Source: Ancylobacter polymorphus (GTDB lineage: Bacteria; Pseudomonadota; Alphaproteobacteria; Rhizobiales; Xanthobacteraceae). Taken from it: a stretch of DNA of 64,000 nucleotides. Position 1 is the stretch's first letter; each line of letters begins with the position of its first letter. The DNA is taken from assembly GCF_030813495.1 (NCBI RefSeq), contig NZ_JAUSUI010000004.1, forward strand, positions 186,001-250,000. The letters are read 5' to 3'. The notes under the pieces are model-generated. The model did not search any database and was not told the origin of the DNA. It was given only the letters and a program-made list of their open reading frames with translations. The position numbers and the translations under genes are program-made. This document shows, piece after piece, positions 22,271 to 36,836 of the stretch.

Positions 22271-22379
22271 CTCATGCCCGGGCTTGACCCGGGCACCCAG
22301 AGACGGTTCCCCCCGGGGCTGAGATGTGAGTGGTGGAGCGGCGGCAAGGCTGGGTCCCCGGCTCAAGCCGGGGGATGAG
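22271..22379. repeat. 109-bp inverted-arm repeat element
   Basis: The left arm CTCATGCCCGGGCTTGACCC continues to position 22300. The right arm at 22350-22379 is its near inverted copy, ending GGGGGATGAG. The core between them differs from that of the 110-bp copies at 30945 and 31508, but the arms and overall size match. It separates cca from the convergent cytochrome bc1 operon. Confidence 0.75.
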
Positions 22380-30020: not shown

Positions 30021-30914
30021 ATGAGTGCCGAGACCGCCGCCGCCATCGAGGCCCGCAAGGCCGCCGCCCGCGCCTGGTTCGAGGAATTGCGCGACCGCAT
30101 CTGCGCCGCCTTCGAAACGCTGGAGGACGAGGCACCGGAAGCGCTCTATCCCGGCGCCCCCGGCCGCTTCGAGCGCACCCCGTGGCAGCGTACCGACCAT
30201 TCCGGCGCGCCGGGCGGTGGCGGCGTGATGTCGCTGATGCGCGGGCGGCTGTTCGAGAAGGTGGGTGTCCACTGCTCCACCGTGCATGGCGAATTCGCGC
30301 CCGAATTCCGCAAGCAGATTCCCGGCGCGGAGGAAGACCCGCGCTTCCACGCGACAGGCATCTCGCTCATCGCCCATATGGCGAACCCGCATGTGCCGGC
30401 GGTGCACATGAACACGCGTTTCGTCGTCACCACCAAGGCGTGGTTCGGCGGCGGGGCGGACCTGACCCCGGTGCTGGAAGCCCGCCGCACCCAGGAAGAC
30501 CCGGATTCGGTGGCTTTCCACGCGGCGATGCGCGGCGCCTGCGAGGGCCGCCCGCACATCGACTATGCCCGCTACAAAGAGTGGTGCGACGAGTATTTCT
30601 ATCTGCCGCACCGCAAGGAAATGCGCGGCATCGGCGGCATTTTCTACGACTGGCTGGACTCGGGCGACTGGAACGCGGACTTCCACTTCACCAAGGCGGT
30701 GGGGCTTGCCTTTCTCGATGTCTATCCCCGTCTCGTGCGGGCGAACATGGCGACGCCGTGGAACGAGGCGGCGCGCGAGGAACAGCTGATCCGCCGAGGC
30801 CGCTATGTCGAGTTCAACCTGCTCTATGACCGTGGCACGCTGTTCGGGCTGAAGACCGGGGGCAATGTGGATTCGATCCTCTCCTCCATGCCGCCGGTGG
30901 TGAAGTGGCCGTGA
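30021..30914 (+). CDS. hemF: Oxygen-dependent coproporphyrinogen-III oxidase
   Basis: HemF decarboxylates two propionates of coproporphyrinogen III to vinyl groups with O2, giving protoporphyrinogen IX for haem. The 297-residue protein has the conserved blocks [49 protein letters not shown] and a C-terminal [21 protein letters not shown]. Length fits the family (about 300). It is followed by the repeat and GIY-YIG region, with no other haem gene adjacent. Confidence 0.95.
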
Positions 30915-30944
30915 CAGCGCGAGCGCTGAATCCCCTTCTGCCCC

Positions 30945-31054
30945 CTCATCCCCGGGCTTGACCCGGGGATCCAGCTTTCCGCATCCGCATGGCTTGCTCG
31001 AGGGCTTGGCGAGCGGAGCCGTCTCTGGGTGCCCGGGTCAAGCCCGGGCATGAG
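30945..31054. repeat. 110-bp inverted-arm repeat, left full copy
   Basis: The arm CTCATCCCCGGGCTTGACCC (continuing to GGGGATCCAGC) is mirrored by CTGGGTGCCCGGGTCAAGCC (continuing to CGGGCATGAG). The 50-bp core begins TTTCCGCATCC and ends GGAGCCGTCT. The element is identical to the copy at 31508-31617 over at least 109 bp, and has arms related to the element at 22271. The two copies flank the GIY-YIG element. Confidence 0.88.
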
Positions 31055-31084
31055 GCGGAGCGCAGGTCCCCAGCTACACACGCC

Positions 31085-31477
31085 CTCATCCCCGGGCTTG
31101 ACCCGGGGATCCAGCCTTTCGGCCGTCACAGCAGGTCGTCGTAAAGGTCCCGCCAGTCGGGATTGTCGCGCTCGATCAGGGCGAGCTTCCAGCGGCGCGG
31201 CCAGTGCTTGAGGTTCTTTTCGCGCTGGATCGCGGCCATGGCGGTGTCGTGCGGCTCGGCAAAGACAAGCGTCTTGACCCCGTATTGCTCGGTAAACCCG
31301 CCGAACAGGCCTGTCCGATGCTCGTGCATGCGCTTGGGAAGATCTCGGGTCACGCCGACATAGAGCGTCCCGTTACGTTGGCTGGCGAGGATATAGACCC
31401 AGTGCGGCTTCATGGCCTGTCACGCCCCGCCGGTCAGAGTGTGAAGTCTGGGTGCCCGGGTCAAGCCCGGGCATGAG
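31085..31477. mobile_element. Repeat element with a GIY-YIG gene in place of its core
   Basis: The left arm (31085-31115) and the right arm (31448-31477) are the same arms as in the gene-less 110-bp copies on either side, but between them lies a complete GIY-YIG gene instead of the 50-bp core. A linker with GGAGCGCAGGTCCCCAGCTA occurs at both sides (from 31056 and from 31479), so the flanks are also duplicated. The arrangement suggests an autonomous version of the repeat, but mobility is inferred, not shown. Confidence 0.6.
31126..31413 (-). CDS. Single-domain GIY-YIG nuclease
   Basis: A 95-residue protein consisting of just one GIY-YIG domain. VYILASQRNGTLYVGVTRDL corresponds to the two GIY/YIG strands (here VYI and YVG), followed by the arginine helix (RMHEHR) and a conserved Glu region in FAEPHDTAMAAIQREKNLKHWPR. 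It resembles the UPF0213/YhbQ-type proteins that occur in many copies per genome in alphaproteobacteria. The start is ATG. It is embedded between two inverted repeat arms, with the stop 10 bases from the left arm and the start 34 bases from the right arm. Confidence 0.88.
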   Translation of the reverse strand: MKPHWVYILASQRNGTLYVGVTRDLPKRMHEHRTGLFGGFTEQYGVKTLVFAEPHDTAMAAIQREKNLKHWPRRWKLALIERDNPDWRDLYDDLL

Positions 31478-31507
31478 TCGGAGCGCAGGTCCCCAGCTAC
31501 ACACGTC

Positions 31508-31617
31508 CTCATCCCCGGGCTTGACCCGGGGATCCAGCTTTCCGCATCCGCATGGCTTGCTCGAGGGCTTGGCGAGCGGAGCCGTCTCTGGGTGCCCGGG
31601 TCAAGCCCGGGCATGAG
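31508..31617. repeat. 110-bp inverted-arm repeat, right full copy
   Basis: Same sequence and orientation as the copy at 30945-31054, identical over at least 109 bp. Direct duplication of a whole element on both sides of the gene-bearing copy implies recent amplification or unequal recombination. It ends 18 bp before the MaoC-like gene. Confidence 0.88.
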
Positions 31618-31635
31618 GGGGCGGTCAGGCCCCCG

Positions 31636-32112
31636 TCACCCCTCCAGCCGTTCCACGAACAGGCTGTTGGTGAACTCCAGCACCCGCGTGCCGGCGGGGT
31701 CGGTGGCGGTCTCAAGCGTGAAGACGAGGCCCCATTCCGGACGGCTTGCGCTCGGCTTCTTCGCCGTCACCTCGCTGAGAAAGGCCAGCGTGTCGCCGGG
31801 GCGCACCGGGCGCAGCCAGCGCAGATCCTTGAAACCGGGGGAGGGACCGAGGCGCGGCACCGGCCTTCCCTCGCGCCGCAGAAGCTCATGCTCGCGGGCC
31901 CAGGCCTGCGCCCGCAGCCGGGCGGAAATCGCCACCACATGCCAGCCGGAGGCCACCAGCCCGCCGAAATGGGTGCGCGCGCCCGCCGCCGCGTCGAGAT
32001 GGAAGGGTTGCGGATCGAAGGCGCGGGCGAAGGCGACGATTTCGCCTTCGGTGAAGCTGTGCGCGCCGAGCCGGGTGCGGGCGCCGATCTCGATATCCTC
32101 AAAGAACCGCAT
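31636..32112 (-). CDS. MaoC-like dehydratase, 158 aa
   Basis: A hot-dog fold protein of the (R)-specific enoyl-CoA hydratase type. The hydratase-2 motif is FARAFDPQPFHLDAAAG (about 28-44), with the catalytic Asp and His in FDPQPFHLD. The later FKDLRWLRPVRPGDTL is also typical. It forms a pair with the upstream 152-residue paralogue 9 bp away, and the two may act as a heterodimer on acyl-CoA thioesters. No other fatty acid gene is nearby. Confidence 0.85.
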   Translation of the reverse strand: MRFFEDIEIGARTRLGAHSFTEGEIVAFARAFDPQPFHLDAAAGARTHFGGLVASGWHVVAISARLRAQAWAREHELLRREGRPVPRLGPSPGFKDLRWLRPVRPGDTLAFLSEVTAKKPSASRPEWGLVFTLETATDPAGTRVLEFTNSLFVERLEG

Positions 32113-35912: not shown

Positions 35913-36836
35913 TCAGAACTTGCCGAGCACCCCGGCCTTGACGAGGCCGCTCGCCTCCGAACCGGGCGCCTGCGAGCGCTCCACCGAGATGTAGCGCTCG
36001 GCGCGGCCGGCCGGCGCGCGCAGCTCCACTCCGGTGCGCACCGTCTGCCCCTTGTCCACCTCGACCGTCGTGCCGAGCTGTTCCGCCCCGAGGCCGAGCG
36101 GCGCCAGCGGCACCGACACGGTGCTGCCGACGGCGATATTGTCATAGAGCGTCGCGGAGGCCGGGTTCGGTCCGGCGGAGGCGCCCAGAGTGCCGGTGCT
36201 GTAGACGGTGAGATGGTCCTGCTCCAGCCCGAGCCGGCCTTTCAGTTCGCCCGAACCGCTGGTGCTGGTGGTCGCGAGCGCGCCTGAGGCGGGAGCGGTG
36301 GCGCTGGCGCTGGAGGAGACCGACATGATCGCCGCGCCCTGGCGCAGCTCCATCTGCGTCGGCAGCTGGGTCCGCGCCCGCTGCACGGGGGCGCTGCGCT
36401 TTTCGATCAGCTGGTAGGGCGTGGGCGCTTCCGGCTCCGGCTCTTCCGGCGGTCCGCCGAGGCCGAGATCGATGCTCTCCCACAGCGAGGGCATGACGGC
36501 GGTTTCCTGCGCGGGATCGAAGGTCACGGGCGCCGCCGCAGCGGCAGGCGGGGGCGGGGCGGGCTGTGCCGCTTCCGCCGCCGCATCGGCCGCGTCGTGA
36601 GCGGCGTCATAGGCCGAGCCCCCGGCGGCTGCCTCGTCATAGGGCGAGATCATGATCACCCCGAACCACGGGTCCGGCAGGCCGGGCTTGGTCACGGTGC
36701 CGATGGACTGGGCGGCGGCCGGCAAGGCGAGGGCGAGCAGCAGGCCCGTCGCGGGCGCGACGCGGCGGGTGAGGGGCGCGAGGCGGATCCCGAAGGGGCG
36801 CGGCAAGGAGAGACGCGGCAAGGGAGTACGCGGCAT
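35913..36836 (-). CDS. Exported Ala/Pro-rich hypothetical protein
   Basis: I do not recognise the function. From the ATG at 36836 it has 307 residues. An N-terminal basic stretch and hydrophobic ATGLLLALALPAAAQS point to a signal peptide cleaved near residue 43. An Ala/Pro-rich linker (about 65-110) follows, then a Ser/Thr-rich part and a beta-rich C-terminus with GVELRAPAGRAERYISVERS. It may be a periplasmic or surface protein anchored by its beta domain. No ribosome site is evident before the start. It lies between rplY and prs. Confidence 0.65.
   Translation of the reverse strand: MPRTPLPRLSLPRPFGIRLAPLTRRVAPATGLLLALALPAAAQSIGTVTKPGLPDPWFGVIMISPYDEAAAGGSAYDAAHDAADAAAEAAQPAPPPPAAAAAPVTFDPAQETAVMPSLWESIDLGLGGPPEEPEPEAPTPYQLIEKRSAPVQRARTQLPTQMELRQGAAIMSVSSSASATAPASGALATTSTSGSGELKGRLGLEQDHLTVYSTGTLGASAGPNPASATLYDNIAVGSTVSVPLAPLGLGAEQLGTTVEVDKGQTVRTGVELRAPAGRAERYISVERSQAPGSEASGLVKAGVLGKF

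Follow-up and report, generated by a model that had tools for sequence, protein, structure and literature searches.

A GIY-YIG nuclease gene between CGTC-tagged REP hairpins: a candidate gene-bearing repeat element in Ancylobacter polymorphus

The CGTC-tagged repetitive extragenic palindromic (REP) sequences form a superfamily with a tag, CGTC, TGTC or CCTC, at one end, a stem of 8–9 bp starting with AT, a loop of 4–5 nt and a CCA tail (Di Nocera, De Gregorio and Rocco 2013, PMC3733652). In that paper, head-to-head pairs predominate and the hosts are mostly alphaproteobacteria; the repeats are said to 'apparently lack a dedicated transposase', and an early disappearance of CGTC REPtrons is considered possible. 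We analyzed a stretch of 64,000 nt from Ancylobacter polymorphus (contig NZ_JAUSUI010000004.1, positions 186,001–250,000; hereafter the window), in which a gene for a GIY-YIG nuclease of 95 amino acids (aa) lies between two inverted hairpins, its arms, that fit this superfamily. The unit is rather likely to be a gene-bearing, autonomous-type CGTC-tagged REP element, with outward-tagged hairpins around a nuclease matched to the same hairpin.

The nuclease is a homologue of a protein in Neisseria gonorrhoeae (57% identity over 95 aa) which we take to be Ssn, and would then be related to the Ssn family. The gonococcal gene lies among many GTCATTCCCGC..GCGGGAATCYA repeats fitting the CGTC-1 type, and a 2025 paper on N. 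meningitidis reportedly describes Ssn as a site-specific single-strand nuclease that cuts such repeats, modulates transformation and has thousands of homologues. The link between nuclease and repeat is therefore probably known in part already. An earlier note on this DNA had known of no repeat family with a GIY-YIG gene in its core, a claim that needs qualifying, as the repeat belongs to the described CGTC-tagged superfamily and Neisseria reportedly has the Ssn pair. A literature search on GIY-YIG enzymes with REP-type repeats or RAYTs returned no title or abstract opening describing a link, and the passages on GIY-YIG genes in a Caulobacter paper that names them (PMC10688885) make no mention of repeats.

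The arms of the nuclease gene and of its homologues

The earlier note had placed the gene exactly between a left arm and an inverted right arm, and both arms were recovered as 29-nt hairpins (Table 1). Each folds more stably than all of its 200 shuffles. The left arm forms a hairpin of -11.1 kcal/mol with a 9-bp stem, the loop CTTGA and a CCA tail; the right arm has an 8-bp stem, its outermost pair being A.C, and a stem pair that is C-G in the left arm reads G-C in the right. The arms share the stem starting with AT, the 5-nt loop and the CCA of the published superfamily, with the tag CCTC at the Ancylobacter locus and CGTC or TGTC at most of the relatives' arms shown. Head-to-head pairs occurred in 16 of 20 regions of the same genome, these regions having been selected for REP matches. 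The protein matched PF01541 in Pfam at 52.2 bits (cut-off 22.6; E 7.7e-14). Residues Y7, Y18, G20, R28, H32, E65 and N84, which we take to be the GIY-YIG catalytic set, are all present in it and are among those invariant in 38 of 38 aligned sequences.

To see how general the arms are, we searched 119 genomes of the family to which A. polymorphus belongs for the nuclease and obtained a match in 100. A first set comprised 110 loci among the matches listed (the A. polymorphus locus, 29 given as loci and 80 retrieved), which were mostly best-scoring and did not represent weak homologues. A second set, from named genomes, started from 80 loci, of which 5 duplicates or partial genes and 1 with a short flank were left out; none of the remaining 74 was shared with the first set. 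A strict REP finder reported both arms at 46 of the 110 loci, one arm at 27 and none at 37, and inspection of these 37 revealed longer or shifted palindromes around most of them. Because the strict finder undercounts, we adopted a type-free test in which the upstream flank was aligned to the inverted downstream flank and scored against shuffles.

By this test, arms exceeded all 1,090 shuffles at 90 of the 109 usable loci of the first set and all 1,480 shuffles at 57 of the 74 loci of the second, while far flanks did so at 0 of 105 and 0 of 70 loci, respectively. The flanks of hemF, used as a gene control, gave none beyond the shuffles in 30 cases. Most of the homologues examined thus carry arms, the outcome on which the earlier note had made its element model depend. 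REPs were also concentrated beside the gene, with 118 in 219 bins of 70 nt (0.54) compared to 2 in 215 bins at 490–560 nt (0.009), and the tag pointed outward in 97 of the 117 nearest REPs. The association of gene and arms is real, broad and well above chance.

The nuclease and its arms also varied together. Across genera, protein identity correlated with arm similarity (rho 0.40; only the 82 loci that have clear arms were used), a value reached in none of 300 permutations. The 25 genomes with two or more loci gave 62 loci for comparison: the best alignment was to the locus's own second arm in 55, to the arm of another locus in 5 and tied in 2, compared to 25 own-arm matches expected. The stems differed in 15 of 39 pairs of 29-nt arms, and both stems were perfect in 11 of these 15, although the finder favours palindromes; the hairpin is conserved through compensated stem changes. 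The nearest protein relative belonged to a different genus for 61 of 73 loci. Of 30 Ancylobacter genomes, 7 have the nuclease clade, and all 7 contain at least 13 cognate REPs; the same is true of 5 of the 23 that lack it (Fisher 0.0004), and 14 of those 23 had no cognate REP.

Two further observations concern the homologues. Those of genomes G009, G056, G025, G011, G100 and G012 are each interrupted by a single in-frame stop, which copies of a mobile gene would be expected to show as they decay. On a Planktothrix plasmid (L181), a cyanobacterial homologue has an MmeI-type restriction gene on one side and a DISARM gene on the other.

The tandem array and the gene-less copies

Two gene-less pairs flank the unit and a 30-bp spacer is repeated, and the locus is therefore a tandem array, with the nuclease gene in the middle unit and gene-less 110-bp pairs and repeated spacers on both sides (Table 1). 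The first of the two flanking pairs forms a single long hairpin (z -6.4). The REP-type finder gave 9 matches in the window; 20 mononucleotide shuffles gave 0.1 on average. Two of the 9 have a stem mismatch (22351 and 36469), and the match at 36469 is probably due to chance.

Table 1 Features of the nuclease unit, its array and a further REP pair in the window.
Feature	Position	Strand	Basis
Left arm, CCTC-tagged REP hairpin, tag outward, CTCATCCCCGGGCTTGACCCGGGGATCCA	31085..31113	+	Repeat finder; folding
GIY-YIG nuclease gene, 95 aa, intact	31126..31413	-	Open reading frame; PF01541; invariant residues
Right arm, inverted REP hairpin, tag outward, CTCATGCCCGGGCTTGACCCGGGCACCCA	31449..31477	-	Repeat finder; folding
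Gene-less head-to-head REP pair, 52-bp core	30945..31054	.	Repeat finder; folding
Second gene-less head-to-head REP pair, 52-bp core same as first (tandem copy)	31508..31617	.	128-nt direct repeat at 96%
Inter-unit spacer, first copy (30 bp)	31055..31084	.	Within 98-nt direct repeat at 96%
Inter-unit spacer, second copy (30 bp)	31478..31507	.	Direct repeat
Further gene-less REP pair, same family, second member degenerate	22271..22379	.	Repeat finder

The arms are not confined to the nuclease gene and its neighbours. The genome of A. polymorphus holds 35 exact matches to the arm pattern, of which 2 are at the nuclease gene and the others lie away from it. A stem pair that the search pattern left open is kept in all 35 (23 C-G, 12 G-C); it is broken in 7 matches listed for other genomes. 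Gene-less copies had been described earlier as enclosing about 50 bp, which is true of both flanking pairs (52 bp) and represents one size only: among 20 pairs of this genome, the cores, each trimmed by 2–3 nt, measured 19–27 bp in 13, 48–50 bp in 6 and 78 bp in 1. Across loci, 71 distinct cores of 29-mer pairs fell into clusters of 16–38, 45–59 and 66–81, with none at 39–44 or 60–65. The clusters are spaced ~22–24 nt apart and their sequences are unrelated. The spacing within head-to-head pairs is constrained and the content is free.

The cores of the 20 pairs of this genome are likewise unrelated, tandem copies excepted. For this reason the small pairs are not straightforward duplicates of a single master unit, which is what the simplest REPIN picture would predict, and spread of the small elements by whole-pair copying was rejected. 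The element model of the earlier note is well supported by the arms at most of the homologues examined and by their many occurrences away from the gene.

The unit is intergenic. It is flanked on one side by genes for coproporphyrinogen oxidase (hemF), a VIT-family protein and an ABC transporter, and on the other by two MaoC-like genes. The nuclease had no match in the defence and phage libraries PADLOC and PHROGs, and no phage record matched it at E 1e-5. The same genome holds a second small GIY-YIG gene (G000:C6:235861-236094, locus L010), 40% identical to the 95-aa nuclease. This gene too lies between inverted palindromes, which differ from the 29-nt arms, are longer and have a CGTC-type end.

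Conserved sites with and without the unit

The earlier note had asked for syntenic sites in empty, pair-only and gene-bearing states, and all three were found. In the ABC-VIT-hemF block of Ancylobacter, the unit with the gene is located 3' of hemF in four genomes, antisense in that of A. polymorphus (G000), in G128 and in G141 and sense in G103, and it is located 3' of the ABC gene in G120 and G135, the match in G135 covering residues 20–94 only. In G132 the unit is 11.5 kb from hemF. Genome G130 has REPs only at the hemF site, G141 has a REP pair at the ABC site, and the REP finder reported no REP at these hemF and ABC sites in several other Ancylobacter genomes. A clean empty joint in G137/G140 was rejected, as the relative has other DNA there.

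Other genera gave comparable sites. One intergenic site of Sphingobium plasmids occurs in three states: TomMM15, TomMM7A and TomTYG46 have the unit; TomTYG64 and TomTYG74 have a single palindrome, tagged at its two ends; and neither unit nor palindrome was found in TomTYG72, TomTYG65 and S. herbicidovorans. The single palindrome with its two CGTC tags (L321, ~1964–1992; same site in L322) resembles a scar or a site of insertion. In Azospirillum lipoferum 4B, the gene sits between sufB and sufC with a REP pair on either side of it. Among the other Azospirillum records listed, 11 span this junction and all are ~490–590 bp shorter there, and the gene and REPs were absent from the junction in the three of them that were inspected. 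In Shinella, two inspected records lack a unit that is present in three records matching the query over its full length.

Proposed mechanism, rival explanations and known systems

We infer from these comparisons that the nuclease may drive the mobilisation of the small copies. It would bind the REP hairpin in its single-stranded state and cut at or near the hairpin foot, and cutting together with host repair would lead to REP units being excised, copied or homogenised. Both the hairpins and the single palindrome point to a single-stranded substrate. As GIY-YIG enzymes hydrolyse DNA but have no joining activity, the host would have to supply the joining step. Gene-less pairs would depend on the nuclease as REPINs do on RAYTs. 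Such a scheme of cutting plus repair would fit arms that are common to the copies and cores that are not.

Several results weigh against the unit being such an element. There was no sign of transposition, of cleavage or of a target duplication, and Ancylobacter genomes with the nuclease clade have a single copy of it each, which is not the pattern of a proliferating transposon. Ancylobacter G126 and G130 have 46 cognate REPs each and no nuclease match at E 1e-10. The permutation test on the co-variation of nuclease and arms leaves relatedness above the genus in place. The arms were not above the shuffle maximum at 19 of 109 and 17 of 74 loci, and 6 of 8 loci in Caulobacter, Phenylobacterium and Brevundimonas (L217, L236, L239, L244, L251 and L273) failed the arm test; part of the nuclease family may do without arms, as the homologues of these three genera mostly lack clear ones. 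The unrelated cores count on the same side, as do the comparisons of G137/G140 and of G062/G142/G124/G129, where relatives without the gene have other DNA at the site. The single palindrome of Sphingobium can be read as a deletion between 8-bp repeats (ACCCCGGG) for which no enzyme is needed.

The single copy per genome would also suit an Ssn-type enzyme, kept by the host, that processes incoming or lagging single strands at REP marks, for example in shaping transformation, with arms that arose by recombination between repeats and not by enzyme-driven movement. The identity of the nuclease to the repeat-surrounded gonococcal protein speaks for this account, and we regard it as a serious, if unlikely, alternative. 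Taken alone, however, it leaves unexplained the lineage-specific unit inside the suf operon, the several sites and both orientations in the ABC-VIT-hemF block, and the cognate arms lying tight at the gene ends. A free-standing homing endonuclease, which cuts empty sites and is copied in by repair, would account for the GIY-YIG domain and the site polymorphism, and the protein has a weak match to a group I intron endonuclease model of NCBIfam, under its cut-off. It is a quite improbable explanation of this locus: the unit is intergenic, between hemF and a MaoC-like gene, conservation lies in the arms, the sites differ between genera, and an Rfam scan of 30800-31800 found no intron family, its only matches being to microRNA models, all below gathering. 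REPs are common between genes of this genome, and an ordinary host gene might have gathered repeat-type terminators on both sides by chance; this idea can hardly be correct and is in our view refuted by the hemF and far-flank controls and by the pairing of arms with their own partners.

The reading of the unit as a gene-bearing CGTC-tagged REP element makes it look like a 'REPtron' whose chemistry is that of GIY-YIG enzymes and not of RAYTs. As a broader and tentative proposal, the CGTC-tagged REPs could form an active superfamily of single-strand mobile elements driven by their cognate GIY-YIG nucleases, which are unrelated to RAYTs in chemistry, with a target that can be read from the flanks of each gene. 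The nuclease is a candidate enzyme for this large class of bacterial repeats, for which the published account had left the question of mobilisation open. If true, REP-type elements came about through two nuclease chemistries with no relation to each other, and the hairpins adjoining the genes of many small GIY-YIG enzymes could be used to predict the targets of these enzymes.

Compared to known systems, the 95-aa nuclease shares its catalytic domain with GIY-YIG homing endonucleases and with UPF0213, but the locus has no intron that we found and the similarity to UPF0213 is distant (structure 1zg2, E 1.8e-05). Ssn is a homologous protein whose Neisseria copy likewise lies beside many short repeats, whereas here the gene and its arms are read as a mobile unit tied to the CGTC-tagged superfamily. 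The RAYT/REPIN system, with GTAG REPs and a tyrosine transposase, has in the same way a single enzyme gene between its own REPs and gene-less pairs elsewhere; the enzyme here is a GIY-YIG protein in Pfam and not a HuH tyrosine transposase, its fold and chemistry are unrelated, and the cores of the pairs are not common to the copies. The arms agree with the CGTC-tagged REPs described in PMC3733652 in tag, stem, loop, CCA tail and head-to-head pairing, and the difference from those published repeats is the GIY-YIG gene that REPs flank here and in most of the homologues examined.
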